DNA of 64,000 nucleotides from Bacillus sp. FJAT-22090 (GTDB lineage Bacteria; Bacillota; Bacilli; Bacillales_A; Planococcaceae), in assembly GCF_001278755.1 (NCBI RefSeq), contig NZ_CP012601.1, forward strand, positions 4,030,154-4,094,153, read 5' to 3'. Shown here one piece after another: positions 102 to 61,782 of this stretch. The notes under the pieces are model-generated. The model was given only the letters and a program-made list of their open reading frames with translations. It did not search any database and was not told the DNA's origin. Positions within the stretch are counted from its first letter, which is position 1. Every line of letters starts with the position of its first letter. The position numbers and the translations under genes are program-made.

Positions 102-352
102 AAAAAGTTAAAGTGTATGTAACATTACGTGAAAGTGTTTTAGATCCACAAGGTTCTGCTGTAATGGGTGCTCTTCATTCTATGGATTACAATGAAGTGA
201 AAGATGTACGCATTGGGAAGTATTTGGAGCTTCAAATCGAAGAGAGTGATCGTGATTTAGATGCTATCGTTAGAGAAATGTGTGAAAAACTTCTTACAAA
301 TACAGTAATCGAAGACTATCGTTACGATGTTGAGGAGGCTGTAAGCAAATGA
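98..352 (+). CDS. purS: Phosphoribosylformylglycinamidine synthase subunit PurS
   Basis: 84 residues, the normal length of PurS, the small subunit that bridges PurL and PurQ in the Gram-positive three-part FGAR amidotransferase. The start follows AGGAGGAT with good spacing and overlaps the purC stop. The protein opens [19 protein letters not shown], a typical PurS N-terminus. Its stop overlaps the purQ start by four bases, so purS and purQ are translationally coupled. It acts in the cytoplasm in step four of de novo IMP synthesis. Confidence 0.97.
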
Positions 353-1035
353 AGTTCGCAGTAATCGTTTTTCCAGGATCGAACTGTGATTTAGATATGT
401 ATCACGCGATTAAAGACGAACTTGGGGAAGAAGTAGAATACGTTTGGCATGATGAGAAAGATTTAAGCGGATTCGACGGTATTTTATTACCTGGAGGCTT
501 TTCGTACGGTGACTACTTACGTTGTGGTGCCATTTCTCGCTTTTCTAATGTAATGTCAGAAGTTGTGAAAGCAGCGGAAGCTGGTAAGCCTGTTCTAGGT
601 ATCTGTAACGGATTCCAAGTATTAACGGAAGCTGGTCTTCTGCCAGGAGCACTACTTCGTAATAAAAATCTTAAATTCATGTGTCGTACAGTAGATTTAA
701 AAGTGATAAATAATGAAACACAATTTACTTCTGCATATAAAAAAGACGAAATAATTCAAATTCCAATCGCACACGGTGAAGGAAACTATTATTGTGACGA
801 AGATACGCTTGCTACATTAAAAGAAAACAATCAAATCGTTTTCACATATGCTTCTGAAAACCCAAATGGTAGTTTGGAAGATATCGCAGGTATTGTGAAT
901 GAAAGAGGAAATGTCCTTGGAATGATGCCTCATCCAGAACGTGCTGCAAATGATATTATGGGCGGTTCAGACGGTCTAGCTTTATTCAAATCAATTGTGA
1001 AACAGTGGAGGGAAACTCATGTCAGTCATGCTTGA
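349..1035 (+). CDS. purQ: Phosphoribosylformylglycinamidine synthase, glutaminase subunit PurQ
   Basis: 228 residues with a class I glutamine amidotransferase fold. The nucleophile elbow GICNGFQ places the catalytic Cys at about residue 86, and the His/Glu part of the triad sits in the C-terminal MPHPERA motif. It releases ammonia from glutamine and passes it to PurL to convert FGAR to FGAM. The stand-alone subunit is typical of Bacillales; enterobacteria fuse it to PurL. Its end overlaps the start of purL, keeping the subunits coupled. Confidence 0.98.
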
Positions 1036-9532: not shown

Positions 9533-9657
9533 GGATGTGCGCCTTACACGCCGCAGGAGAGCGAAGAATGAGACCCCGTAAAGGATGTTGGAGCGACATA
9601 GGAGTGACTCATCCTGCGGAGGCTCATGCGTAGCGTGCGGCAAGCGCACTTCCGTGG
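9533..9657. repeat. Dispersed palindromic repeat, module B, copy 1
   Basis: About 125 bp, GC-rich, starting GGATGTGCGCCTTACACGCC and ending GCGGCAAGCGCACTTCCGTG. The ends are imperfect inverted repeats of each other. A shorter copy with an internal deletion is at 54056-54134. The style (CCGCAGGAG..., GGAGGCTCATGCG) matches a class of intergenic repeats I recall as common in Bacillaceae; that recollection is not checked. Confidence 0.75.
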
Positions 9658-47595: not shown

Positions 47596-48648
47596 ATGGA
47601 AATTGGCGTAACTACGTTTGTAGAAACAACACCGGATGTGGAAACTGGTAAGGTAATTAGTCATGCTGAGCGAATTCGAGAGGTTATAGAAGAAATTGTA
47701 TTAGCAGATCAAGTAGGATTAGATGTATTTGGTGTTGGAGAACATCATCGGAAGGATTATGCATGTTCTGCACCAGCAGTTTTGTTGGCTGCTGCAGCAT
47801 CTCAGACAAAGCAAATTAGGCTGACAAGTGCGGTTACCGTATTATCTTCGGACGATCCTGTTCGAGTATACCAAGAATTTTCTACGCTAGATGCAATTTC
47901 AAATGGTCGTGCAGAGATTATGGCTGGACGAGGTTCTTTTATCGAGTCTTTTCCTCTATTTGGTTATGACTTACAGGATTATGATGAATTATTCGATGAA
48001 AAGTTAGAATTATTATTGAAAATAAGGGAATCAGAAATGGTTACTTGGAGCGGAAAACATCGACCGGATATTCAAAACCGGGGTGTTTACCCACGCCCTG
48101 TTCAACATCCTCTTCCAGTTTGGATAGCTAGCGGAGGAACTCCACAATCTGTTGCTCGTGCGGGTTTTCTTGGGTTGCCACTTGTTTTAGCAATCATCGG
48201 AGGTAGTCCACTTCAGTTTGCACCACTCGTGCAACTTTATAAGAAAGCAGCTACACAGGCAGGGCATGACGTATCGAAGTTGACAGTTGCATCACACTCT
48301 CATGGGTTTGTTGCTGAAAGTACCGAAAGTGCTGTGGACAAATTTTTTCCATCAACTCAACAAGCTATGAACGTCTTAGGAAAAGAACGCGGATGGGGTC
48401 CATATACTCGTGCCACCTTTGACCATGCACGCAGTTTAGAAGGAGCCTTATACGTAGGTGATGTACAAACAGTTGCTGAAAAAATTATTTTTCTTCGTAA
48501 AAACGTAGGCATCACACGCTTTATGCTTCACGTACCAGTCGGTTCGATGCCTCATGATGAAGTGTTAAAAGCAATTGAACTACTAGGAAAAGAAGTTGCA
48601 CCATTGGTTCGTGCAGAAATAGAACGTTGGGAAGCTGAAGGGGAATGA
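47596..48648 (+). CDS. LLM-class flavin-dependent oxidoreductase
   Basis: 350 residues, bacterial-luciferase-like TIM barrel. [10 protein letters not shown] near residue 47, [14 protein letters not shown] and [12 protein letters not shown] are the typical flavin-binding and active-site strands of this family. It is likely a reduced-flavin-dependent monooxygenase or dehydrogenase; the substrate is not predictable. The ribosome binding site is GGGGAGAG. Convergent with the BCCT gene. Confidence 0.88.
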
Positions 48649-48679
48649 CTTCAGTGACTCTTTAAGCTTATAAGAGAAT

Positions 48680-48712
48680 AGGCTTGATTCTGTTGAAGCA
48701 GAACCAAGCCTA
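48680..48712. terminator. Bidirectional hairpin between LLM and BCCT genes
   Basis: Stem TAGGCTTG / CAAGCCTA with inner ATTCTG/CAGAAC pairing. No strong T-tract on either side. Confidence 0.55.
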
Positions 48713-48728
48713 AGTATTCAATATTCTT

Positions 48729-50240
48729 TCACTTTTTTTTCCTTGATTGTACTGCCAATTCACTATCTAGCACTTTAAGTAGGGAGTAACACATGAAGAT
48801 CATAATTATGGCAAATGGAAAGGCAGCTGCAATAGATGCTGTTTGCAATACGGTTAATCCACCGGATAAAAGTAAAACTGCTGCAACAGCAGATTGAATA
48901 ATACCCCATGTCATTTTGATTTTATTGGAGGGATTTAATGTTCCCCCTTCACTCAGCATTCCTAATACAAAAGTAGAGGTATCTGCAACAGTTATATAAT
49001 AAATAGCTACTAGAGCAAATCCCATAAGACTTAATATAGAACTTAGTGGAAGATAATCAAAGAATGAAAAGATAGCTAAAGACACGTTGTCTGCAATATA
49101 TTTAGCCAATTCATGATTTTCTGAGTTGATCACAAGATCAAGCGCGGAGCCTCCGAAGATAGACATCCATAAACAAGTTCCAAGAGTAGGGACGATCAAC
49201 ACACCTACAACAAACTCTTTTATGGTTCTTCCCCTCGATATTCGGGCTATAAACATACCGACAAAAGGTGCCCAAGCAATCCACCATGCCCAATAAAATA
49301 ACGTCCATGATGCAATCCACTCTCCTTCACCAAATGGTGTCATCCTTAAACTCATATGGATAAAATCATTGATATAGAGCCCAGACGTATTAAAAAAGAT
49401 TTTAATAATTGTCAAAGTTGGTCCGACAATTAATATTAGCAACAAAATAGCAAAAGATATGATCATTGCAGCGTTAGATAAATATTGAATTCCCTTTTCC
49501 AAGCCAGTGTTAATTGAAATAATGAAAATAACTGTAGCGACAACAATAACAATCAGTTGAACAACTAACGTATTTGGAACACCGAAAATGGAATGCATCC
49601 CAGCGGTTACTTGTAAGGCTCCAAGACCTAGCGATGTTGCTATTCCAAAGACAGTTGCAAATACAGATAAAATATCTATCGTTTTACCAATAGGTCCATA
49701 AATTTTATCCTTCAGTAACGGATAGAAAACAGAACTTATGGCTGCAGGTAGTTTTTTATTATATTGGCAGAGAGCAAGAGCTAATCCAATAACAGTATAA
49801 ATCGCCCAAGGATGGAGGCCCCAATGAAAAAAGGTATATTGCATGGCAACATTGGCTGCTTCAATGGTATAGCCCTCTCCATACGGGGGTTTCGTATAGT
49901 GAGTAACCGGTTCAGCTACACCCCAATAAACAATCCCAATACCCATTCCTGCCCCAAATAACATTGCTAGCCAGGACGCAGTATTGAAATCAGGCCTGTC
50001 TGTAGTCTTACCTAAACGTATATGACCATACTTAGAAAATAGTAAGTAAAAGGAAAATACTACAAAGAAAAGGGTGGTGCCAATATAGACCCATCCAAGG
50101 TAATCAATAGAAATGTTGAAAATAGTATTGGTGACCTTTGTAAGAAGATCTGTGAAAAAGACCCCCCATGCAATAAAAATAAGGGTTAGTATAAGTGAGA
50201 TGATAAATACACTGTTTTCTTTTAGCTTGTTAACATTCAT
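48729..50240 (-). CDS. BCCT family betaine/carnitine/choline transporter
   Basis: 503 residues with twelve hydrophobic segments. The start is ATG at 50240, right after GGAGGTTTCC; the open frame begins four codons earlier. The family's aromatic ligand-binding helix is seen as FYWAWWIAWAPFVGMFIARISRGRT, along with the GMGIGIVYWGVAEP segment near residue 95. It is a sodium- or proton-coupled importer of trimethylammonium osmolytes such as glycine betaine (OpuD-like). The substrate is inferred from family only. Confidence 0.92.
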   Translation of the reverse strand: MNVNKLKENSVFIISLILTLIFIAWGVFFTDLLTKVTNTIFNISIDYLGWVYIGTTLFFVVFSFYLLFSKYGHIRLGKTTDRPDFNTASWLAMLFGAGMGIGIVYWGVAEPVTHYTKPPYGEGYTIEAANVAMQYTFFHWGLHPWAIYTVIGLALALCQYNKKLPAAISSVFYPLLKDKIYGPIGKTIDILSVFATVFGIATSLGLGALQVTAGMHSIFGVPNTLVVQLIVIVVATVIFIISINTGLEKGIQYLSNAAMIISFAILLLILIVGPTLTIIKIFFNTSGLYINDFIHMSLRMTPFGEGEWIASWTLFYWAWWIAWAPFVGMFIARISRGRTIKEFVVGVLIVPTLGTCLWMSIFGGSALDLVINSENHELAKYIADNVSLAIFSFFDYLPLSSILSLMGFALVAIYYITVADTSTFVLGMLSEGGTLNPSNKIKMTWGIIQSAVAAVLLLSGGLTVLQTASIAAAFPFAIIMIFMCYSLLKVLDSELAVQSRKKK

Positions 50241-50293
50241 GGAAACCTCCAACAGGAAATGTGTTAATAATTGTGAAGACTAATATACAAAAA

Positions 50294-50950
50294 TCATTTA
50301 TCAAGGAGGTTATAGAGAAATTCCCATTTTTCAGTGTTCATCAACTCTTCATGGGGTAACTCTATTTCGCATCCAAGAAATATCGAATTGCCTTTTATGC
50401 CAACAACCATCGCTTCAATTACAGTATCCGAATCGTTTTTTCTATATACATCGCCTATTGTTGGTAACATGTCATTAATAACATTTAATTGTTCATTCAA
50501 GGTACTCTCATCTATATTTTGAATATCTCGATATTCAATTGGATTACTCTGGTCATGACGTCCAGGAACCATTAATAGATACTCATTATGTCTAATCCCG
50601 TTTGACCTATTCGTAATAACGCCTTTGTTTTCAACCGCTGCCACTACTTCGATTTCATTTAATGAATAATGATCGAGGTAATCGGGATTTGGGTTCGTAA
50701 TTAATATGAAATCCCCTTCCTCTGCTTTTCTATCTTTACTGAGGGTATACATATTTTTATTGAAAATAAAGCTATCGAGTTCTTTTGGTTGGTATTTTTC
50801 TACTTCGGCCGCACTACTTAAATGTTGGGACAAATCCCTCAGCCTCATAAGATGAACAGATTGTTTATACATAGGTTTTACCGAATAAACTCTGTGCAAT
50901 TCATTATTGTAATATACAAATTGCCCTTTTCTTACTTGAAACAGTTTCAC
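50294..50950 (-). CDS. Protein of unknown function, 218 residues
   Basis: I do not recognise the family. The sequence is soluble, with no signal peptide or helix. The N-terminus (KLFQVRKGQFVYYNNELHRVYSVKP) looks like an SH3/KOW-type beta-barrel as found at the start of EF-P-like proteins, and a further beta-rich segment (GDFILITNPNPDYL) follows. It sits on the minus strand between the BCCT gene and the divergent isoprenoid-synthase fusion. A minus-strand GGAGGGTGT sits upstream of the ATG. The context gives no firm functional hint. Confidence 0.7.
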   Translation of the reverse strand: MKLFQVRKGQFVYYNNELHRVYSVKPMYKQSVHLMRLRDLSQHLSSAAEVEKYQPKELDSFIFNKNMYTLSKDRKAEEGDFILITNPNPDYLDHYSLNEIEVVAAVENKGVITNRSNGIRHNEYLLMVPGRHDQSNPIEYRDIQNIDESTLNEQLNVINDMLPTIGDVYRKNDSDTVIEAMVVGIKGNSIFLGCEIELPHEELMNTEKWEFLYNLLDK

Positions 50951-51197
50951 AAAAGCACACCCTCCAAATAATTGCGCATATAATCATTTCTAGTTATGGA
51001 AAACCGTATAGTTTTTTAGGATTCTAAAGATCTATTTCTTCGTTTAGTATGTCACCAAATAAATGAAACTAAACAATCTCGCTTAGCTGTCTGGTGAATT
51101 ATAAGAATTTAGGCATTTAAAGAAGAATAGATTTAAATTAGTTAATAAATACAATGTGGAGGCTAGAAGTCGAAAACAAGCTAGAGAAAGTGTCGGG

Positions 51198-51206
51198 TGA
51201 TATAAT
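51198..51206 (+). promoter_or_regulatory. Extended -10 promoter candidate for the isoprenoid-synthase fusion
   Basis: TGATATAAT (TGn plus TATAAT). No matching -35 is seen. The start point would be near 51213, just ahead of the coding region. The 50951-51245 divergent gap is otherwise AT-rich and featureless. Confidence 0.4.
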
Positions 51207-51245
51207 GAAGAAAATACTATATGATGAGATTTTAATAGTTACAAG

Positions 51246-53651
51246 ATGGAAAAAAGAGAACATAAAGTGAAGGTGTGTTATGGAATGATCGAGGAGTTAT
51301 TAATAAATGCTGATGAATGCTATCAGCATGCTGAGCAGAATGCTGCTCTTTATTTTAAATCACTTTATGGGCAAGTAATGGAAAAGGCTTATATACCAAT
51401 CCTAACGGAAGATATACGATTGTGGAAACACAATCATATTCATCATCATTCATTATTCTCCTTTTTATCGCGTGGAAAGGGAAAACCTGATTCTCGCGGA
51501 TATCACCATTATATTCAATGGCTAAATTACACAGGTAAACTTGATAATTACCTCGATAGAAGCATGTCCTATATTTTTATGCGTGATCTGGGGAAAGCAC
51601 TGGATTCACCTGATACTCTAAGCAGAATTGACCGTGTAGTAAATAGTTTAAAAAATCACCTAACAAAAGGAGACAAAGACGAGACATTTAGCATGGCCGG
51701 GTTATACAGAATTGCACAGAAAGAAGGAGTGGAATCGAGTCTAATCTGGGTTATAAACAAGCTGAAGACTGTATCCTCCAAAATTCCGAACGGGATGGAT
51801 GCTGAGCAAGCCCAACGAAAACTAATTAAAATCATTGCCGGAGTAATCATGCAAGAGGTTGAAGAGATGAACGACAAAACATCTCCTGAAGAACGTACTC
51901 GGAGGCTTGATGCAGCTATTAGGCTTGGCTATTCCTATGGTTTAACCTATCCGTTTATTGATGATCTTCTTGATGCAAAAATTTTATCTGAAGAAGAGGA
52001 AAAACAATATTCGGATTTGATTCGTACCACAATTATTACTGGAGTAGTGCCGGAATTGGGAGAGTGGAAGGGGAAGAACGTAGCTCTAATCAAGTATATT
52101 CATGCGGAGCTTCGAGAAGCCTTTACGTATATTAAGAACAAGCAGAGGCAAGAGACAACAATGAATTTTTTCGAGCAATCCTATGTTTTTTTTAATTCCC
52201 AAGAAGTGGACCGTATAAAAGATTTATCGAATGCAAATTACACCAATGAAGAACTTTATATTCCAGTTATATTAAAGTCCTCTTCTTCTCGATTGATTGT
52301 GCGTTCAGTAATCGGTGCTCCTGAGGATAAAGAATTGGACGACCGAACATTCTTTTATGGCATTTATAATCAGCTTGCTGATGATTTTGCAGATATGTTT
52401 GATGACATGAAGGACGGTACGGTAACACCATATACTTATTATATGAAGTATCACGATAAACGTTTGGATCTCATAAACCCATTTGAATTGTACTGGACAG
52501 TTATCTCTAATTTAATTCATAACGTGTATGACTCGGACAGGAAGACATGTGAGGTAATTTTGGATCGAGCTATAAACGGGCTGAAAAGATTTAAAGAGCG
52601 AATGGGTATTAAAAAGTACAATGAAGTTATGGATCTCTTTGCTTCTAGTAATCCTAAATTCAATAGACTGATTCAAGAGATGGTTCGAAAAGCCGATGAT
52701 GTAGATTTCTTTGATAAATTGCTTCGTGACCATATGATTACCATATTGAAAAAGGATCGAGAAGAACAGGAAGAATTTTCAAATATGAGCAAGACTTTAC
52801 GTAATCAGATTAATAGTATCTTAAATCTCCCTACAATCGAGAATAAGAGGTTAATAACAGACCCTATACAAGATGCTGCAAATTACAGCCTAATGGGTGA
52901 AGGAAAACGTTTGAGGCCAATAATTACTTGGTTCATGGGCGTAAAAGCATATGGATTAAATAAAACGGCTATCGAGCCACTTTTGAAATCATTAGAATAT
53001 ATGCATACAGCTTCACTTATTTTTGATGATCTACCTTCACAGGATAATTCATCCACTCGTAGGGGACGTCCAACTCTTCATGAGGTGTACAACATTGCTA
53101 TATCAGAAATAACGGGTCTTTTTTTAACACAAAAGGCAATTGAGGAACAAACCTCTCTGGATCAGTTCGATTCGAAGACTGTACTTAATCTGATTAAATA
53201 TTCAGCACAAACAACTGCAAATATGTGTAGAGGGCAAGCGATGGACTTAGATTCAAAGGGGAAACAACTGACACTAGATCAATTAAATATGATGTGCTTT
53301 TATAAAACTGGCATAGGCTTCGAAGCTTCCCTAATAATGCCAGCAATCCTTGCCCAAGCAAATGATTTAGAAATAGAGGTTTTGAAAAAGTTTGCTCGTC
53401 ACGCTGGCATTGCTTTTCAGATTAAGGATGACTTACTGGATGTTGAAGGTAATTCTGCCATACTCGGAAAGCCTATTGGCAAGGATGAGGAAAACAACAA
53501 CTCCACTTTCGTATCTATATTGGGTCTGGAAGGTGCCAAAAAAGAGATGTGGGAAAATTACTGTATTGCAATGGAAGTATTACAGGAAGTGCCACGCAAT
53601 ACTTCTTTCTTGAAGCATTTTTTAAACTATATAATAAATCGCGATCATTAA
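51246..53651 (+). CDS. Two-module class I isoprenoid synthase fusion (polyprenyl synthetase C-terminal)
   Basis: 801 residues, over twice the usual polyprenyl synthase length. The C-terminal module (about 510-801) has all core prenyl diphosphate synthase motifs: GEGKRLRP (551-558), first Asp-rich motif DDLPSQD (594-600), RRGRPT, GQAMDLD (663-669), the KTG Lys (687), and second Asp-rich motif QIKDDLLD (725-732). The usual GDALL segment is altered. The N-terminal module (1-500) has its own acidic pairs at similar spacing: IDDLLD (238-243) and QLADDFADMFDD (376-387). Two active sites are therefore likely. The start is uncertain: ATG 51246, GTG 51267 or ATG 51285, none with a strong ribosome binding site. 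The product is unknown; prenyl chain synthesis followed by a second reaction is inferred. Confidence 0.85.
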   Translation: MEKREHKVKVCYGMIEELLINADECYQHAEQNAALYFKSLYGQVMEKAYIPILTEDIRLWKHNHIHHHSLFSFLSRGKGKPDSRGYHHYIQWLNYTGKLDNYLDRSMSYIFMRDLGKALDSPDTLSRIDRVVNSLKNHLTKGDKDETFSMAGLYRIAQKEGVESSLIWVINKLKTVSSKIPNGMDAEQAQRKLIKIIAGVIMQEVEEMNDKTSPEERTRRLDAAIRLGYSYGLTYPFIDDLLDAKILSEEEEKQYSDLIRTTIITGVVPELGEWKGKNVALIKYIHAELREAFTYIKNKQRQETTMNFFEQSYVFFNSQEVDRIKDLSNANYTNEELYIPVILKSSSSRLIVRSVIGAPEDKELDDRTFFYGIYNQLADDFADMFDDMKDGTVTPYTYYMKYHDKRLDLINPFELYWTVISNLIHNVYDSDRKTCEVILDRAINGLKRFKERMGIKKYNEVMDLFASSNPKFNRLIQEMVRKADDVDFFDKLLRDHMITILKKDREEQEEFSNMSKTLRNQINSILNLPTIENKRLITDPIQDAANYSLMGEGKRLRPIITWFMGVKAYGLNKTAIEPLLKSLEYMHTASLIFDDLPSQDNSSTRRGRPTLHEVYNIAISEITGLFLTQKAIEEQTSLDQFDSKTVLNLIKYSAQTTANMCRGQAMDLDSKGKQLTLDQLNMMCFYKTGIGFEASLIMPAILAQANDLEIEVLKKFARHAGIAFQIKDDLLDVEGNSAILGKPIGKDEENNNSTFVSILGLEGAKKEMWENYCIAMEVLQEVPRNTSFLKHFLNYIINRDH

Positions 53652-53705
53652 GTGTTGGGTACAATCTTTTAGGCTTTACTACAATTTAATCAATTTTTAT
53701 ATATG

Positions 53706-53740
53706 GATCATGGATATGCAAATATCTATGATCTTTTATT
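53706..53740 (+). terminator. Terminator after the isoprenoid-synthase fusion
   Basis: Twelve-bp stem GATCATGGATAT / ATATCTATGATC, four-base loop, TTTTATTTT tail. Confidence 0.85.
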
Positions 53741-53784
53741 TTGGTATCGTCTTTACTCCTGGTTTAAGCTCTAAATTTTACTGT

Positions 53785-53822
53785 CTCATAAGGCAGGTCG
53801 TGCAGCAAGCGCACATCCGAGT
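53785..53822. repeat. Module B right-end fragment before module A, copy 2 locus
   Basis: The 21-base stretch at 53799-53819 (CGTGCAGCAAGCGCACATCC and one more G) is identical to 54112-54132, the right end of module B at this locus. Confidence 0.75.
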
Positions 53823-53850
53823 CCTAAAAATGAATACTACTTATCTATAT

Positions 53851-53950
53851 GCATTCGCGCATGCCGCACGTCCGCATGAGCCGCTGTAATGCGCTAGACG
53901 CTTACATCTGTCTCATACGGCACGTCATGAGGCTGGGAAGGCGCGAATGC
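53851..53950. repeat. Dispersed palindromic repeat, module A, copy 2
   Basis: 100 bp with the same exact inverted ends GCATTCGCGC / GCGCGAATGC as copy 1 (9313-9410) and long stretches in common, for example CCGCACGTCCGCATGAGCCG and TCTGTCTCATACGGCACGTC. Differences cluster in the loop and a few arm positions. Confidence 0.85.
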
Positions 53951-54055
53951 AGGTGTCAGCCATTACAAATAAAAGGTTTCTTTCTAAAATGTGCTAAATA
54001 GTATTGAAAGTCCAAAATATTGCTATCAAAAATTTTTCATCAAAAGTGGTTAACA

Positions 54056-54134
54056 GGATGCACGCCTCACACGCCGCAGGAGCGATTCATCCGATGGAGG
54101 TTCACGCGAAGCGTGCAGCAAGCGCACATCCGTG
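54056..54134. repeat. Dispersed palindromic repeat, module B, copy 2 (internally deleted)
   Basis: Starts GGATGCACGCCTCACACGCC and ends GCAAGCGCACATCCGTG, matching both ends of copy 1 (9533-9657) but about 45 bp shorter in the middle. The rest of the gap up to 54504 is AT-rich with no gene. Confidence 0.75.
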
Positions 54135-54504
54135 TTTCAATTTTCTATTCTGAAATACATTCAAAATGAAAGATTTCAGTTCGCCCGCCATATTTCCGCT
54201 TTCATTGAAATAGAACTGAATAAAAGGATACATCCATGTATCTAAAAATGAAGTTTGTATTATTTAGTGTTTAAAAATTTACGTGGACTTAACATGACTT
54301 TAATCTTTCTTTTATTTATGTGATATATGCTTAACTTTAGGGAATATTAACAGATAAATTGATTCTTTTTAAACAGGGCATACTATTTGTTTAATCATTT
54401 AAGCAGGAGAATCCGTTATACCAAGCTATATTTCATTATTCTGCATTGTATACCCAACTTGAAGAATGAAGAAAATAAAATGAAGAAATTGTGGAGGTAT
54501 CCGT

Positions 54505-55791
54505 TTGGACTCAACTTTACTAACTTTTATGAATGATTTTAATTCACTTATGTTCCTATTATTTGCATTAATGTATTCCTACCAATTTGTTTATATGTTT
54601 ATCACATTTAAAGCCAAGCAGAAAAAGTACACTGAAATACAGAATGTTCATCACCATAAATTTGCAGTTATTATCCCAGCTCGAAATGAAGAACTCGTTA
54701 TTGGACAACTGATCAAAAGTATAAAAAATCAAAATTATCCCAAAGAAATGATTGATATTTTCGTTGTGGCAGATAACTGTTCCGATAATACTGCTAAGGT
54801 TGCGGAGAAGGCGGGAGCTATAGTTAGAGAGCGTTTCAATAAGATTCAGATTGGCAAGGGATACGCGCTCGACTATATGCTTAGAATCATTGGAAGTGAC
54901 TACTCATCCAATAAGTATGATGGATATTTCGTGTTTGATGCCGACAATCTCTTGGACGAGAATTATATAACGGAGATGAACAAGACATTCAATAAAGGAT
55001 ACAGGGTGATCACTAGTTATAGAAATTCTAAGAACTATGATCAGAATTGGATTTCAGCAGGATATGCACTTTGGTTCCTGCATGAAGCTGAATATCTCAA
55101 CCTTCCAAGAATGGCCCTTAACTCTAGTTGTGCGGTATCTGGAACAGGATTTTTAGTACATGCAGATGTATTCAGAGACAATGGAGGTTGGATACATCAT
55201 CTCCTAACGGAAGACATCGAGTTTTCAGTTTCTCAAATTATTAAAGGTGAAAAGATTGGTTATTGTAGAAACGCTGTGTTTTATGACGAGCAACCAGTCA
55301 CTTTTGCTCAATCCTGGAATCAACGATTACGTTGGGCAAAAGGTTTTTATCAGGTATTTTCTAAATATGGAAAGGACTTAATTGAAAATATATTCCGAGG
55401 TAAGGGTAACAGATTTTCATGCTTTGATATGACGATGATGATCATGCCGGCCATGCTTGTTTCTAGTATCAGCATTATGGTGAATGGTTTACTATACTTG
55501 GGCATCTTTATGGGAATATTTGAGGGGAAAGGGATTATGCAAGGAGCAACTACGGCCATAATAGAATCTTTTGTTTGGTATTATGGAATCCTTTTTGTTC
55601 TGGGCTTAATGACAACATTATCAGAATGGAGAAAAATCCATTGTTCTGCCTGGAAAAAAATCGCTTTTACAATTACTTTTCCAATTTTCATGTTTACCTA
55701 TATACCAATTTCTGTCGTAGCATTGTTTAAGCATGTTGAATGGAAACCAATTGCTCACACAGTTGTGAAATCACTTGATGATGTACGATAA
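54505..55791 (+). CDS. Membrane glycosyltransferase family 2
   Basis: 428 residues from TTG 54505 after GTGGAGGT. One N-terminal helix, a GT-A domain, then three or four C-terminal helices. The motifs VVADNCSDNT, FDADN (nucleotide-sugar and metal), LTEDIEFS and QRLRW mark a processive inverting GT2, as in hyaluronan, chitin or poly-GlcNAc synthases. The product is not predictable. It is a single gene after the repeat block, with a terminator; no partner polysaccharide genes are nearby. Confidence 0.88.
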   Translation: MDSTLLTFMNDFNSLMFLLFALMYSYQFVYMFITFKAKQKKYTEIQNVHHHKFAVIIPARNEELVIGQLIKSIKNQNYPKEMIDIFVVADNCSDNTAKVAEKAGAIVRERFNKIQIGKGYALDYMLRIIGSDYSSNKYDGYFVFDADNLLDENYITEMNKTFNKGYRVITSYRNSKNYDQNWISAGYALWFLHEAEYLNLPRMALNSSCAVSGTGFLVHADVFRDNGGWIHHLLTEDIEFSVSQIIKGEKIGYCRNAVFYDEQPVTFAQSWNQRLRWAKGFYQVFSKYGKDLIENIFRGKGNRFSCFDMTMMIMPAMLVSSISIMVNGLLYLGIFMGIFEGKGIMQGATTAIIESFVWYYGILFVLGLMTTLSEWRKIHCSAWKKIAFTITFPIFMFTYIPISVVALFKHVEWKPIAHTVVKSLDDVR

Positions 55792-55806
55792 GGACAAAAG
55801 AAGAGA

Positions 55807-55853
55807 AGTGACTACCTATAAAAGTCAGTTTCAAAGACTTTTTGGTAGTCACT
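55807..55853. terminator. Bidirectional terminator between GT2 and L,D-transpeptidase genes
   Basis: Stem AGTGACTACC / GGTAGTCACT with a T-rich loop side, and an inner AAAGTC/GACTTT pairing. Confidence 0.75.
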
Positions 55854-55860
55854 CTTGATG

Positions 55861-56370
55861 TTATGGGTGTATAAAAACCGGAGTTCCTATTGGGACTAGG
55901 CGTGCTAATTCCTCCACATCCTTATTGTTCATGCGGATACAACCACGTGATACTGCTTGACCAATGGAACTTGGATTATTAGTTCCATGAATTCCATAGT
56001 GTTCTTTCGATAAACTCATCCACATAGTACCGAATGGTCCTCCTGGATTAGGTGCTTTGTTTATAATGATAAAATTTCCTACTGGAGTAGCAAATAACAT
56101 TCTCCCAACTGCGATAGGATACTGTTTTTGTAAAACACCATCCAATAGTAAACGAAGCCAACGATTGTTAATGGAAACTTCCAATTTATAGGGGAGTGTA
56201 TTGGGGTCTGGAAAACCTGGTATAACAATGGATTGACCAATATATAGTACATTTGGATCTATTGAAGGATTAGCTCTTATGATTGTGGATAACGGTGTAC
56301 GATAGTCTCTAGATATTTGAGTTAGTGTTTCTCCTGGCTTTACTGTATGAATCAGTAAAATCACCTCCAT
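55861..56370 (-). CDS. LysM-L,D-transpeptidase (YkuD type)
   Basis: About 165-169 residues: an N-terminal LysM repeat ([19 protein letters not shown]) and a YkuD catalytic domain with the [10 protein letters not shown] and SRGCIRM motif (His, Ser, Arg, Cys). It closely parallels B. subtilis YkuD in length and order. It makes 3-3 cross-links or modifies peptidoglycan, often in spores. The frame opens at ATG 56370, but GGAGGTGA overlaps codons 2-4, so translation may really start at CTG 56355, giving a YkuD-like [15 protein letters not shown] start. Confidence 0.9.
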
Positions 56371-56505
56371 ATTTTTTAGTTATATTACATAATATGATGA
56401 AATTTAAAAGTGTTGTTTTCATCCTTTCATTTCTCATATATGATATGGCAAATGTAATAAGAAGAGTCAAAATTGCAAATGATTAGAACATGGTTAAATA
56501 GTTAA

Positions 56506-56535
56506 AACACCTACACATCGTGTGGGTGTTTTTTT
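56506..56535 (+). terminator. Orphan terminator between two genes
   Basis: Stem AACACCTACACA / TGTGGGTGTT, three-base loop, seven T. No plus-strand gene lies upstream; the nearest is the minus-strand L,D-transpeptidase. The rest of the 56371-56685 gap is AT-rich. Confidence 0.7.
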
Positions 56536-56685
56536 AGTTTTTGGATGACGTACATACAAAGAAAGTAAAATTTTTTTTACTAGTAAAAATTATCGAATCT
56601 ACTGTTTTTCAATATATACTACTATACTTAAAATAGTGAAACTATTATATTGTATAATTTCGATTTTAAAAGGGAGAGATATACA

Positions 56686-57801
56686 TTGGAAAAGAAAAAT
56701 CTTGAATTGGCAATTCAATTACGACATGAGTTGCATCAGCATCCTGAACTCTCGAATCAAGAGGTCTGGACGAAACAACATTTAATCGATTTCTTGAAAA
56801 CGCATACAAAATTAGAAATAGTCGACAACGCCCAATGGTTCTATGCTATTTATCGTGCCGGTGAAGACAAAAAGAATATAGCTTTCCGTGCTGACTTTGA
56901 TGCACTACCTATGCCTGAAGTAATTGATATTCCACATGCTTCCCAATTTTTTGGAGTTTCTCACAAGTGCGGTCATGACGGTCACTCAGCAAGCCTCGCT
57001 GCATTTGCTCTGGAAATCGACCAAAAGGGTGCAGACAAAAACATCTTTTTCCTTTTCCAACACGCGGAGGAAACAGGAGATGGCGCTATTCAGTGTGCTA
57101 CTTTTATTAAAGAAAATAATATAGATGAAATCTTCGCCTATCATAATATGAGTGGTGTGGCTTACAATTCGGTAAACGTAATTGACGGAACGGCTCAGTG
57201 CGCATCAAAGGGAATGACGATTCACATAGTTGGTTCTCCTGCACATGCAAGTCAACCGGAGGATGGAGTAAATCCTTCCTTTGCCATTGCTAAAATAATT
57301 GATGCAATCCCTGATTTTATCTCCCCAGAGAATAACGAGGGAATCGTACTTTGTACAGTTGTTCAAGTAAATATCGGTGAAAGAGCATTCGGTATGTCTG
57401 CGAGTAAGGGAGAGTTACTTTTAACGATCCGAGCATTATACGAAGAGGAATTAGATAAACTTCAGAAAAATTTAGAAGATCTTGCTATGGATCAAGCAGA
57501 AAAATTCGGTATTCAGGTAAGCTTCTCTTATAATGATGAATTTCCTGAAACTGTAAATGACAAAGGGAGTTCAGATAAAATTCGTAAAGTATGTGAAGAT
57601 AAAGGGTTTCAATTAGTTGAAATGAAAGAAGCATTTCGTGCCTCAGAAGATTTTGGCCATTATTTAAAGTTAACTAAGGGTGCAATATGCTACATCGGAA
57701 ATGGAGAAGACTACCCTCATGTCCATACATCTAAGTACGATTTCCGAGATGACATCATTGAAACAGCAGTAGAGCTTTTCAAAGGTATTACGGAACAATA
57801 G
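56686..57801 (+). CDS. M20-family metallopeptidase/amidohydrolase, copy 1
   Basis: 371 residues from TTG 56686 after GGGAGAG. The open frame starts 12 codons earlier without a ribosome binding site. The M20D-type metal and catalytic motifs are AFRADFDALPM, SHKCGHDGHSASL, FQHAEETGDGA and FAYHN. Such enzymes remove acyl or aminoacyl groups from small amides or peptides. It is followed 160 bp later by a near twin at 57961. The substrate is unknown. Confidence 0.9.
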   Translation: MEKKNLELAIQLRHELHQHPELSNQEVWTKQHLIDFLKTHTKLEIVDNAQWFYAIYRAGEDKKNIAFRADFDALPMPEVIDIPHASQFFGVSHKCGHDGHSASLAAFALEIDQKGADKNIFFLFQHAEETGDGAIQCATFIKENNIDEIFAYHNMSGVAYNSVNVIDGTAQCASKGMTIHIVGSPAHASQPEDGVNPSFAIAKIIDAIPDFISPENNEGIVLCTVVQVNIGERAFGMSASKGELLLTIRALYEEELDKLQKNLEDLAMDQAEKFGIQVSFSYNDEFPETVNDKGSSDKIRKVCEDKGFQLVEMKEAFRASEDFGHYLKLTKGAICYIGNGEDYPHVHTSKYDFRDDIIETAVELFKGITEQ

Positions 57802-57960
57802 TCATATAGCATAAATAATAAAAAAGTTGTCTTATTAGCCAAATGCGCTTTTTAGAAATAAGCATTATTCTGACGATGAGGCCTACTATAAATATAGGAA
57901 TATTTTAACAAGATACACTTACGACTTATCAAAAAAAATGAGTTAAGGGAGAGAAAAGCT

Positions 57961-59076
57961 TTGGAAAAGAAAAATCTAGAATTAGCAATCCAATTACGAC
58001 ACGAGCTACATAAGCATCCTGAACTTTCAAATCATGAGGTTTGGACAAAACAACATTTAATAGATTTTTTAAAAACGCATACACAATTAGAAATAGTAGA
58101 CAAAGAACAGTGGTTCTATGCGGTATATCGCGCAGGGGAAGACAAAAAGAATATTGCATACCGTGCAGATTTTGATGCTCTTCCTATGCCGGAAGTAATT
58201 GACATTCCACATGCTTCTCAGTTTCCAGGCATTTCTCATAAATGCGGGCATGATGGCCACTCTGCTAGTCTTGCCGGATTTGCATTAGAAATTGACCAAA
58301 AGGGTGCAGACAAAAATATTTTCTTCCTTTTCCAACATGCGGAGGAAACCGGGGACGGTGCTGCTCAATGCGCTTCTTTTATCGAGGAACATAATATCGA
58401 AGAAATTTTTGCTTATCATAATATGAGTGGCATGGCTTTTAACTCGGTAAATGTAATTGATGGGACTGCGCACTGTGCTTCCAAAGGGATGACGATCCAT
58501 ATGGAAGGTGCACCAGCACATGCTAGCCAACCGGAGAATGGAGCAAACCCAGCTTTTGCTATTGCTAAAGTTATTGATGCGATTCCTGAGTTCATCTCAC
58601 CAGAGAATAATGAAGGGATTGTACTTTGCACAGTTGTACAAGTGGATATAGGCGAAAGAGCTTTCGGTATGTCTGCTAGTAAGGGTGATTTGCTGTTAAC
58701 TATTCGTGCTCTTCATGAAGAAGAACTAGATAAGCTTCAGAAAAACCTAGAGGATCTTTCTAATGCTCAAGCAGCAGAATACGGCTTGAAAGTTAGTTTT
58801 ACCTTTGCGGATTCTTTCCCTGAAACTGTAAACGACAAAGAAAGCTCTGATAAAATTCGTAAAGTTGCAAAGAATAAGGGTTTTGAGGTAGTGGAAATGA
58901 CAAAAGCATTCCGTGGCTCTGAGGATTACGGCCATTACTTAAAGCTAACAAAAGGTGCTATGTGCTATATAGGGAACGGTGAAGATTATCCACATCTACA
59001 TACGTATGAATATGATTTCCGTGATGATATGATTGAAACGGCTGTAGAGCTTTTCAAAGGACTAGCAGAATTATAA
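57961..59076 (+). CDS. M20-family metallopeptidase/amidohydrolase, copy 2
   Basis: 371 residues from TTG 57961 after GGGAGAG, the same start context as copy 1. All metal-site motifs are preserved (HKCGHDGHSASL, FQHAEETGDGA). Most differences from copy 1 lie in the last third, for example around residues 275-325. It clearly arose by tandem duplication. Both copies are intact, so both may be functional, perhaps with different specificity. Confidence 0.9.
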   Translation: MEKKNLELAIQLRHELHKHPELSNHEVWTKQHLIDFLKTHTQLEIVDKEQWFYAVYRAGEDKKNIAYRADFDALPMPEVIDIPHASQFPGISHKCGHDGHSASLAGFALEIDQKGADKNIFFLFQHAEETGDGAAQCASFIEEHNIEEIFAYHNMSGMAFNSVNVIDGTAHCASKGMTIHMEGAPAHASQPENGANPAFAIAKVIDAIPEFISPENNEGIVLCTVVQVDIGERAFGMSASKGDLLLTIRALHEEELDKLQKNLEDLSNAQAAEYGLKVSFTFADSFPETVNDKESSDKIRKVAKNKGFEVVEMTKAFRGSEDYGHYLKLTKGAMCYIGNGEDYPHLHTYEYDFRDDMIETAVELFKGLAEL

Positions 59077-59090
59077 ACCTTCGTTAAATT

Positions 59091-59120
59091 AAGCATTCAC
59101 ACTATTGTGGATGCTTTTTA
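59091..59120 (+). terminator. Terminator after the second M20 gene
   Basis: Stem AAGCATTCACAC / GTGGATGCTT (one G-U pair), four-base loop, TTTT. Confidence 0.8.
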
Positions 59121-59172
59121 AGTTTAATCTAGCAATGCTATACTAAAATAAATGGTTTTGGAAGGAGAAATT

Positions 59173-59562
59173 ATGGAAGTAAACAAAGTCACTTTTAACT
59201 CAATAGATGAATATATTTCAACCTTTCCTCCTGAAGTTCAAGAAAAACTAATAACAATATGGCAAGTAATAAAAGAGGCTGCTCCTGAAGCGACAGAGAA
59301 AATAAGCTATCAAATGTCTACTTTTGCTTTCCATGGGAACCTAGTCCACTTTGCTGCTTATAAAAACCATATAGGATTTTATCCAGCTCCAAGCGGAATA
59401 GAAGCTTTTAAAGAGGATATTGCACAATATAAAGGGGCGAAAGGATCCGTCCAGTTTCCTTTAGAACAACCATTGCCTTATGAACTAATCAGCAAAATAG
59501 TTAAATTTAGAGTCGCTGAGAATGAAAATAAAGCCAAGAATAAGAAGAAAAAAGAAAAATAA
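59173..59562 (+). CDS. DUF1801 protein (YdhG-like, frataxin-fold)
   Basis: 129 residues from ATG 59173 after GGAAGGAG. The core TFPPEVQEKLITIWQVIKEAAPEATEKISY and the HFAAYKNHIGFYP segment define DUF1801. B. subtilis YdhG/Fra of this family is a frataxin-like iron chaperone. The C-terminus is a run of Lys, Asn and Glu typical of the family's variable tail. It is convergent with the sigma-factor gene across a shared terminator. Confidence 0.85.
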   Translation: MEVNKVTFNSIDEYISTFPPEVQEKLITIWQVIKEAAPEATEKISYQMSTFAFHGNLVHFAAYKNHIGFYPAPSGIEAFKEDIAQYKGAKGSVQFPLEQPLPYELISKIVKFRVAENENKAKNKKKKEK

Positions 59563-59574
59563 TATTTATTTAAA

Positions 59575-59620
59575 ATAAGAGACTGCCCCTTTTCTTAATC
59601 TGTAGGGGACAGTCTTATTT
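59575..59620. terminator. Bidirectional terminator between DUF1801 and the ECF41 sigma gene
   Basis: Stem AATAAGAGACTGCCCCT / AGGGGACAGTCTTATT with flanking A and T tracts on both sides. Confidence 0.88.
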
Positions 59621-59630
59621 TAAATAGCAT

Positions 59631-60494
59631 CTAAAGTTTAGGTAACTTATCAGGATTCATCATAATGTAAACTTCGTTTATTTTTTCATCACTAATATAA
59701 AAACTAATGATACTTTGAAGCGAGCCATTCATGTAATTCACCATTGCTGGCTGACCGTTGACATTTCTGATCTCAAAATAAAAATCCTTAGGAGCTTTTT
59801 TCGCTATACCGTATAACAAGGCTAAAACGTTTGATAGTGATGTTATTGGACGAGTAGCAGCATTAACTTTTCCTCCACCATCAGAATATAGTGTTACATT
59901 CTCGGATACTAATTCTAATAAGACATTTGTATTTTTCATTTCAAAAGCTTGGATAAACCGATTGATAATCGACTTATTGTTTTCATAGTTCAAACTTTCA
60001 CTTTCTATTCGTGCAATTTTTTGCTTAGATCTGCTATAAATTTTCCTACAGTTATCTTCATTTTTTTCAATCATGCTAGCAATCTCCAAGTATGTGAAAT
60101 CAAATACCTCTCTTAATAGAAGTACTGCCCGTTCGTCCGGAGTTAAATGCTCCATCATCCTTAAATAAGCAATGCTTAATCCTTCTGTTTGAAGTGCAAC
60201 ATCAGACGGATCTAAATCATTAGATTTCTCTACCAATAGTGGCTCGGGATTCCAAGGTCCTACGTAATTCTCTCGTTTATAACGTGCTGACTTTAAGTAA
60301 TCAAGACAACGGTTTGTCATCATTTTACAGAGATATGCTTTAATATTATTAATCTGTTGTTCATCCATTTGATATGCTTTTAAAAAAGTTTCTTGCACAA
60401 TATCCTCTGCATCACCTATTGAACCTAGCATGCGATAGCCTATTGAAAATAACAGTGGTCTAAATAGTTGATAATCTTCATTACTAATTTGCAC
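59631..60494 (-). CDS. ECF41-type RNA polymerase sigma factor (SigJ-like)
   Basis: 287 residues. Sigma region 2 is at about 8-75 and region 4 at about 110-160, then a SnoaL-like C-terminal domain. ECF41 hallmarks are present: a NYVGPWNPEPL linker near residue 77, DGGGK (205-209) and NPDKL (280-284). In this class the C-terminal extension, not an anti-sigma factor, controls activity. The gene lies four bases after the oxidoreductase gene on the same strand, so both are expressed from the ECF41-type promoter upstream. Confidence 0.92.
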   Translation of the reverse strand: MQISNEDYQLFRPLLFSIGYRMLGSIGDAEDIVQETFLKAYQMDEQQINNIKAYLCKMMTNRCLDYLKSARYKRENYVGPWNPEPLLVEKSNDLDPSDVALQTEGLSIAYLRMMEHLTPDERAVLLLREVFDFTYLEIASMIEKNEDNCRKIYSRSKQKIARIESESLNYENNKSIINRFIQAFEMKNTNVLLELVSENVTLYSDGGGKVNAATRPITSLSNVLALLYGIAKKAPKDFYFEIRNVNGQPAMVNYMNGSLQSIISFYISDEKINEVYIMMNPDKLPKL

Positions 60495-60498
60495 TTTA

Positions 60499-61782
60499 TC
60501 ACCTCTGCTCGAGTAGTTGTATTAATTCCTTCGCTGCTTGTTTTCCACTGCTTACTGCTCCTTCTGACAAAATGGAATAAGGAGAAACCCAGTCTCCAGC
60601 TAATAATAATCCAGGGATTTCAATATTAGAACAGGCCAATTTTTGCTCATCTCCTAATTGAGGTAGACGCTGGTTAACTGTAATATTAGGCATAAAACGA
60701 CTAGTAATCTCGTATTTTTTCCATTCGGGCTGCATCTTTTCTAAAAATTGTTCCAACTCCTTTTTTATTTCTTTACCATCTATTTGATCATTCGGGTGAT
60801 GGTATTTATAAACATGTAAAACTGTATTTTTTCTATCTTCAGAGAGTCTGGCGTAATTTGAATGAACAGAGTAATACAAAGGGTCAGTTATACCCATTGC
60901 AAACAATTTTTTTGGATTAGGAAGCTTCGTTAATGCAACATCAAGTGTAGCTCCTTTTATAGGTGGCATATGGGTAAGGAAATCACGCTGAACCATACTA
61001 ACTTGTTCACCTAACATTTTGTTAAGCTCTAGAGGACCTGTGGTATTCAGCACATACTTACTGGAAATTTCCTCATCATTAGATAGAACCAATTTAAAAT
61101 GTTCCTCTTCAAGTTTGATAATTTGCTTTACTACAGAGTTTGATTGAACTTGAATACCAGAGATGACCGCTTTATTATGGAGCTGGTCTATTACCATTTG
61201 CCAACCGTAATCCAAATAAAGTACTCCACCCATTCCAATCTTCATATGAGATACAATTATCTTTGCGCTAACCATTTCAGGGGCATGGCAATACGTGGTG
61301 AGTCTGCCGAGTGTATATATTAAAGACTGAACTTTTTTAGATAACGTAACTTGCATGACCCATTGCTGAAATGTTTGCTCTGCTAATCTTTCTGTATCCA
61401 AGCTATTTATATTCTTTAATATAGCTACCCATTCCACTTTTTCTCTCCAGTTCAATAATCGTGTCGTTAAAAGTCCCAAAGGATTAAAAGGAGCAGTGTA
61501 CTCCATATTATTTTCAATTAAAGTACCTCCTAATATAGGTGATTTTCCATTCAGTTTGATACCTAATTCTTCGAGAATAGGAGCCGCTTTTCCTCTTTTA
61601 TATAGGGCATGTGGGCCCAGATTAAAATAATGTTGGTTAACCTTATCTGTCCTAGCCCTTCCGCCGACCTTTTTACCTTTTTCAACGATTAAAATAGACA
61701 TATCTGTTTTAGCTAAATAATTTGCTGCAACATACCCTGCTAATCCACCACCAACAATTACAACGTCCCATTTTTGAACCAT
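60499..61782 (-). CDS. FAD-dependent oxidoreductase (phytoene-desaturase-like), partner of ECF41
   Basis: 427 residues. The N-terminal Rossmann motif VVIVGGGLAGYVAANYLAK is followed by EKGKKVGGRARTD; the C-terminal FAD segment is LLAGDWVSPYSILSEGAVSSG. It resembles NAD(P)/FAD amine-oxidase/desaturase-type flavoproteins. Genes for oxidoreductases, epimerases or carboxymuconolactone decarboxylases are the usual partners and targets of ECF41 sigma factors. First gene of the two-gene unit. The substrate is unknown. Confidence 0.88.
   Translation of the reverse strand: MVQKWDVVIVGGGLAGYVAANYLAKTDMSILIVEKGKKVGGRARTDKVNQHYFNLGPHALYKRGKAAPILEELGIKLNGKSPILGGTLIENNMEYTAPFNPLGLLTTRLLNWREKVEWVAILKNINSLDTERLAEQTFQQWVMQVTLSKKVQSLIYTLGRLTTYCHAPEMVSAKIIVSHMKIGMGGVLYLDYGWQMVIDQLHNKAVISGIQVQSNSVVKQIIKLEEEHFKLVLSNDEEISSKYVLNTTGPLELNKMLGEQVSMVQRDFLTHMPPIKGATLDVALTKLPNPKKLFAMGITDPLYYSVHSNYARLSEDRKNTVLHVYKYHHPNDQIDGKEIKKELEQFLEKMQPEWKKYEITSRFMPNITVNQRLPQLGDEQKLACSNIEIPGLLLAGDWVSPYSILSEGAVSSGKQAAKELIQLLEQR

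Follow-up and report, generated by a model that had tools for sequence, protein, structure and literature searches.

A candidate bacterial fusion of a class I isoprenoid synthase module with a prenyl diphosphate synthase in Bacillus sp. FJAT-22090

Fungal chimeric prenyltransferase-terpene synthases (PTTS) such as PaFS, TvTS and MpMS unite in one gene an N-terminal class I module and a C-terminal prenyltransferase (PT), and have been described as unique to fungi (PMC8307374). Here we analyse a bacterial gene with the same order of modules, found at positions 51246-53651 of a 64,000-nucleotide stretch of Bacillus sp. FJAT-22090 (Planococcaceae; contig NZ_CP012601.1, positions 4,030,154 to 4,094,153) that is referred to below as the window. 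PaFS and MpMS are PT oligomers carrying tethered cyclases (PMC8190136, PMC9177416). Class I terpene synthases bind magnesium via the motifs DDXXD/E and (N/H)DXX(S/T)XXXE (PMC8307374), for the second of which the alternative consensus (N,D)DXX(S,T)XXX(E,D) has been given (PMC9814573), and they typically have three basic residues besides these metal motifs (PMC10563020). Bacterial fusions of two terpene enzymes are also known, namely the bifunctional diterpene cyclase/synthases (PMC11469919), which join class II to class I domains, whereas the present fusion joins a prenyltransferase, a word that does not occur in the main text of that paper. Among the listed titles and abstract openings of the open-licence literature we found no bacterial prenyltransferase-terpene synthase fusion, a scope that leaves room for a prior description elsewhere, and the available sections of two papers on Bacillota (PMC12654598, PMC13228071) do not mention one.

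We propose that the gene encodes a bifunctional isoprenoid synthase made of two tandem class I alpha modules, the C-terminal one making a prenyl diphosphate that the N-terminal one would ionise to a terpene, and we consider this moderately probable. A reading made earlier from the letters of the window (the sequence-only reading) had taken the protein for a bacterial counterpart of the fungal chimeric synthases. The architecture and the conservation reported below agree with that view, and membership of the fungal family by sequence was not borne out.

Layout of the protein and its prenyltransferase module

The open reading frame of 801 residues was found where the sequence-only reading had placed it, and the natural protein is probably the shorter product of 788 residues that starts at residue 14. 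The protein was compared with 294 homologue rows; because a number of genes are present in two versions that differ in their start, the distinct sequences number 273 over residues 156-445 and 280 over 156-801. In the protein database the best 120 of 1370 clusters were listed, and in a GTDB scan the best 80 of 444 relatives, of which 72 loci entered the row set. The loci left out had no exact YGLTYPF frame (L116, L139, L142, L164), missed the PT pattern (L137, L165) or had no early M (L099, L118); by tblastn all eight retain the seven N-terminal and six C-terminal Asp examined, the L139 match carrying one stop. Locus rows were picked by patterns with YGLTYPF, the DKLLRD stretch or the first PT motif, so that the conservation of those letters is partly selected, and D239-D243 and D379-D387 are part of no row-selection pattern. 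The features of the protein are as follows, with residues numbered by the 801-residue count.

51246-53651, + strand: open reading frame of the 801-residue fusion protein
51285..53651, + strand: probable true coding sequence, 788 codons plus stop, beginning at codon 14 of the frame (from homologue starts)
51285..51710, + strand: N-terminal helical extension, residues 14-155, the least conserved part (from predicted models and column identity)
51711..52580, + strand: predicted class I alpha module, residues 156-445
51816..51830, + strand: basic cluster R191-K192-L-I-K195, 44-48 residues ahead of the first acidic motif (from conservation)
51957..51974, + strand: first acidic motif IDDLLD (DDxxD), residues 238-243 (from conservation)
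52275..52304, + strand: K344-x4-R349-x3-R353 before the second motif, invariant, proposed diphosphate contacts
52371..52406, + strand: second acidic motif QLADDFADMFDD (DDxxDxxxD), residues 376-387 (from conservation)
52581..52745, + strand: connecting helices, residues 446-500, continuing in the predicted model as the long helix 489-525 with which the C-terminal module opens
52758..53648, + strand: trans-polyprenyl diphosphate synthase module, residues 505-801
52902..52919, + strand: GKRLRP, residues 553-558, which we take to be the motif binding isopentenyl diphosphate (IPP); K554 and R557 in 294/294 rows
53025..53045, + strand: first Asp-rich motif DDLPSQD, residues 594-600, with the conserved Ala589 at -5
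53427..53441, + strand: second Asp-rich motif DDLLD, residues 728-732, starting with D728

The assignment of the C-terminal part to the prenyl diphosphate synthases stands, and by family and motifs this module is a trans-polyprenyl diphosphate synthase. PF00348 scores above its cut-off only at residues 541-769 (175.7 bits against a cut-off of 27), and the PT letters checked are conserved in 289-294 of the 294 rows except A589 (285 rows, with S in 6, G in 2 and a gap in 1) and K746 (216 rows). D728, 134 residues after D594, is present in 290 rows, the remainder being 3 gaps and 1 odd row. Ala589 and Ser590, at -5 and -4 of the first Asp-rich motif, had been read as leaving room for a chain longer than C15, and this argument holds against nine short-chain synthases from the same and related genomes, all with Tyr at -5; judged from the residue before the first motif, the product is probably C20 or longer. 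It is in this Ala, and in being fused, that the protein differs from the bacterial farnesyl and geranylgeranyl diphosphate (FPP and GGPP) synthases IspA and CrtE. The genome, one contig of 4.21 Mb, has three PF00348 genes: the fusion gene, one with the short first motif DDVID that we take to be of the long-chain type, and one with DDLPAMD that is presumably of the short-chain type.

PT motifs are incomplete or odd in P0006, P0007, P0038, P0199, L138 and L167. P0006 (590 residues) has no PT domain, and P0038, L138 and P0199 each have one changed PT-motif letter together with intact N-terminal motif letters, which could reflect sequencing or gene-model errors.

The bacterial protein is similar in size to the fungal PTTS (788-801 residues against about 700; PMC8307374) and shares their C-terminal PF00348 domain. 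It differs from them by an additional helical extension of about 140 residues, by a second N-terminal motif in which all acidic residues are Asp, and by the connection between the modules, which is a flexible 70-residue linker in PaFS (PMC8190136) and a helical one (446-525) in the bacterial model. One study of the fungal family used an N-terminal PF03936 domain as its criterion (PMC8307374), and the bacterial protein lacks this domain: PF03936 (Terpene_synth_C) and Terpene_syn_C_2 gave no Pfam match at E <= 1 in the whole protein or in 26 homologous N-terminal halves. Because of this we class the protein apart from the fungal PTTS, as a variant whose mode of action would resemble theirs; its membership of the chimeric family by sequence is not supported, and its N-terminal module has no recognisable sequence relationship to the fungal one.

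Conservation and predicted fold of the N-terminal module

The two acidic motifs on which the sequence-only reading was built, IDDLLD and QLADDFADMFDD, lie where it had placed them, with 140 residues from D239 to D379 against the 134 of the C-terminal pair. It had also made their conservation a check of the proposal. This conservation exceeds chance: D239, D240, D243, D379, D380, D383 and D387 are each invariant (294/294 rows, 273/273 distinct sequences), even where identity among rows over residues 156-445 falls to 51%. R191, K192, K195 and Q376 are invariant on the same two counts, K344, R349, R353 and R441 in all 294 rows, and Y374, N375 and further residues are invariant as well. The DDxxD/E motif of the fungal PTTS and of class I terpene synthases is therefore present in every row as D239, D240 and D243. 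The second motif, DDFADMFDD, has the spacing of the NSE/DTE triad (N,D)DXX(S,T)XXX(E,D) in 294/294 rows, with Asp at all three places, so that the S/T position is unmatched.

Mean column identity over the 294 rows is 0.826 for residues 156-445, 0.804 for the PT module and 0.706 for residues 1-155. Pairwise ratios of nonsynonymous to synonymous substitution rates (dN/dS) against nine relatives, which are rough values as dS approaches or exceeds 1 in several of the comparisons, were 0.08-0.13 for residues 156-445 (8/9 pairs, dS not being estimable in one), 0.07-0.12 for the PT module (9/9 pairs) and 0.10-0.26 for residues 14-155 (7/9 pairs). Purifying selection thus acts on the two modules with similar strength.

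The profile search that the sequence-only reading had called for returned nothing above threshold for residues 1-500 in Pfam, NCBIfam or PDB sequence profiles. The only recurrent weak N-terminal signal was polyprenyl synthetase (PF00348), found in 15 of 26 members at E <= 1 (best 3.1e-4) and in the window protein at 12.9 bits, E 0.064, below the cut-off of 27. In L022, as in the window protein, the weak match covers the first acidic motif; elsewhere it forms a longer colinear stretch that reaches the second acidic motif in L048 and L042, is short and lies at the second motif in L025 and L053, and is absent in the other five of the ten N-terminal halves inspected in detail. PF00494 (squalene/phytoene synthases) and PF10776 were without a match at E <= 1 in the whole protein and the 26 N-terminal halves. 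PF10776 is the family of the YtpB-type large terpene synthases (DUF2600), which are class I terpene enzymes of Bacillaceae and from which the fusion protein differs in this respect. When the N-terminal module was compared by hhalign with the C-terminal one and with itself, the one stretch to align was 223-245, at E 0.14 and a probability of 0.4%, and its counterpart was the second PT motif; this profile comparison is uninformative because the family is too uniform (effective sequence number, Neff, 2.1).

The Pfam alignment in the window protein and L022 also suggested that residues 239-243 might be the second motif of a degenerate first prenyltransferase. We disfavour this idea because no DDxxD-like motif is kept about 134 residues upstream, and because residues 162..441 are colinear with the bacterial class I terpene synthase BjKS. 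In that upstream region a single Asp, D114, is invariant, residue 100 being D in 267/294 rows and residue 104 in 228/294.

A class I fold of residues 1-500 had been named as a further check, and here the outcome is divided. The predicted N-terminal model is alpha-helical, and all 50 of its VIA-align matches listed are isoprenoid synthases; the structural alignment with BjKS is colinear over 162..441 at 7-8% identity. BjKS-type enzymes share with the module the predicted fold, the DDxxD motif, the second-motif spacing and the colinear length, and differ from the fusion, besides this low identity, in that the latter has its own prenyltransferase and a basic cluster resembling an IPP site. The Foldseek superposition was poor, with TM values of 0.20-0.30 of the model, root-mean-square deviations of 14-21 and no E below 0.001, and this weighs slightly against the proposed function. 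For the full-length model, the VIA-align matches listed fall almost entirely on the C-terminal module. In that model the modules are linked by helices 446-525, and the predicted local distance difference test (pLDDT) falls below 50 over stretches of three or more residues only at 1-13, 67-78, 143-146 and 534-537. From these models the N-terminal module likely has the class I isoprenoid synthase fold.

Proposed reaction and alternatives

In the mechanism that we propose, the C-terminal module elongates dimethylallyl diphosphate (DMAPP) with IPP, probably to C20 or beyond. The prenyl diphosphate would then reach the N-terminal module by proximity, as the fungal analogues suggest, where D239/D240/D243 and D379/D383/D387 may bind the magnesium cluster. 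Basic residues such as K344, R349, R353 and R441 would help to strip the diphosphate, and the resulting carbocation could cyclise or be quenched to a terpene.

The most serious alternative, which we nonetheless regard as unlikely, is that the N-terminal module provides a second site of prenyl coupling, like an elongating prenyltransferase or a squalene-synthase-like enzyme, joining the C-terminal product to IPP or to another prenyl diphosphate. The invariant R191-K192-x2-K195 stands near the start of the helix preceding the DDxxD helix, topologically much like GKRLRP in the C-terminal module (model helices 186-207 and 214-243 compare with PT helices 556-568 and 574-595). The second motif has Q at -3 and DDxxD as in prenyltransferases, and its Q-x2-D-x3-D-x3-D is also the spacing of squalene/phytoene synthases. 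The Foldseek top 50 are prenyl synthases only, and the weak PF00348 matches described above, colinear to the second motif in L048 and L042, point the same way. The absence of PF00494 matches and of an RRG-like arginine pair past the first motif of the window protein speaks against this alternative, and VIA-align places terpene synthases over prenyl synthases, by less than 2 Z units. Moreover, the Asp at +8 of the second motif is invariant only in the N-terminal module, the equivalent offset in the PT module being variable, and because of this the motif looks like the synthase triad and not like a prenyltransferase second motif.

Less likely again, the N-terminal module might strip the diphosphate without cyclisation and free an acyclic alcohol or olefin. 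Nothing specifically favours this outcome over a terpene cyclase, and class I alpha modules mostly cyclise, but the same fold and metal motifs would suffice for it and no conserved tailoring gene lies nearby in 21 neighbourhoods; acyclic products are known from some fungal chimeric enzymes (PMC8307374).

A non-catalytic module that sets chain length or oligomerisation, like the small subunits of heteromeric prenyl synthases, would agree with the lack of detectable sequence relatives among named enzymes and with the existence of class I partners without catalysis, yet it is very improbable in view of the seven Asp and the basic residues invariant in all rows, and because residues 156-445 are constrained about as strictly as the PT module.

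Distribution, reading frame and surroundings

Within the genus, 18 of 19 genomes, that of the window among them, have a full-length relative, as do 1 of 42 from the rest of the family and 3 of 40 from the rest of the class. The counts were 43/398 genomes in a class sample and 6/299 in a phylum sample. All 43 class-sample matches are fused, in open frames of 776-841 residues, and no free-standing N-terminal module is among them. The protein database holds at least 1370 clusters at 90% identity among 7993 candidates scored, and of 556 stretches from the GTDB scan 444 proved to be relatives. Among the GTDB matches listed are Psychrobacillus, Neobacillus, Bacillus, Paenibacillus, Sporosarcina, Clostridium and other genera; among all matches listed, the closest named relatives are Psychrobacillus and homologues bear names such as polyprenyl synthetase, GGPP synthase or similar. 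Other terpene enzymes are sparse: a PF19086 terpene synthase occurs in 1/199 phylum genomes and PF10776 in 1/61 family genomes, neither in this genome, which has one SQS_PSY gene elsewhere.

One record, L140, labelled Arthrobacter beigongshangensis, has a G+C content of 39% in the 7.5 kb retrieved, and the relative encoded there shares 72% identity across its N-terminal half; it is probably a mislabelled or contaminating Bacillota contig.

The sequence-only reading had seen no partner genes beside the fusion gene, and none is conserved: across a hand-picked set of 21 neighbourhoods (18-19.5 kb each, out of a larger number of loci), no other gene family, and so no conserved operon or set of tailoring genes, occurs in more than 6. 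Some neighbours recur within the genus, among them families F3, F4, F8 and F10 with 3-5 loci each, a pattern that resembles ordinary synteny. The absence of conserved partner genes fits an enzyme making its own substrate.

It is possible, and we put it forward tentatively at just under even chances, that Bacillota, largely of spore-forming genera, have a widespread, self-contained prenyltransferase-terpene synthase family whose origin was independent of that of the fungal one. The synthase module would then represent a class I lineage of its own, marked by the all-Asp second motif and perhaps still bearing a site of the IPP type, and the enzymes would make novel terpenoids of C20 or longer directly from IPP and DMAPP. 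If so, a layout known as unique to fungi (PMC8307374) arose more than once, common soil bacteria hold an unmined terpenoid source, and the family is a compact system in which to examine how a terpene synthase evolves from a prenyltransferase-like module. Since no Pfam model recognises its N-terminal half above threshold, searches for terpene genes with known profiles would overlook the family.

The natural protein is probably the 788-residue product translated from 51285, because 214 of the 294 rows begin at residue 14 (151 of these starts as given by the sources, 63 being the first in-frame M) and because GAAGGTG lies 9 nucleotides upstream. Of 19 aligned rows, 16 have this sequence ahead of the start, and the remaining three (the window's own L004, L008, L013) stop short of the site.

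51269..51275, + strand: Shine-Dalgarno-like GAAGGTG, 9 nucleotides ahead of codon 14 (from the upstream alignment)
53705..53734, + strand: terminator-like hairpin with a T-rich tail, 3' of the stop codon, a weak call (4 such sites in the window against a shuffle mean of 2.2)

In the upstream alignment of 19 loci a TATAAT-like block is present in some loci, and no sporulation-sigma element is obvious by eye. No RNA family reaches its gathering threshold within 48000-60000 of the window.

Upstream of the fusion gene, 50294-50950 (- strand) encodes a 218-residue protein with no Pfam match at E <= 0.001. Further downstream, the genes at 56650-57801 and 57961-59076 are adjacent and look like a tandem duplication, as their proteins appear closely similar on inspection; the first matches M20 peptidase. 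At 59631-61782 (- strand) a sigma-70-type sigma factor of 287 residues, similar to the extracytoplasmic function (ECF) type, adjoins a flavin adenine dinucleotide (FAD) amine-oxidase-like protein in the same direction; these two are in no family common to three or more of the 21 neighbourhoods. The 850-base gap 3' of the fusion gene contains the short dispersed repeat GTGCRGCAAGCGCACATCCG twice (53799-53822 and 54112-54135), and a variant of it occurs once more in the window at 9634-9654. GTGCAGCAAGCGCACATCCG has 20 genome sites at up to 2 mismatches against 0 for the reversed control, and the dispersed repeat GTGCRGCAAGCGCACATCCG looks like a repetitive extragenic palindromic (REP)-type element.
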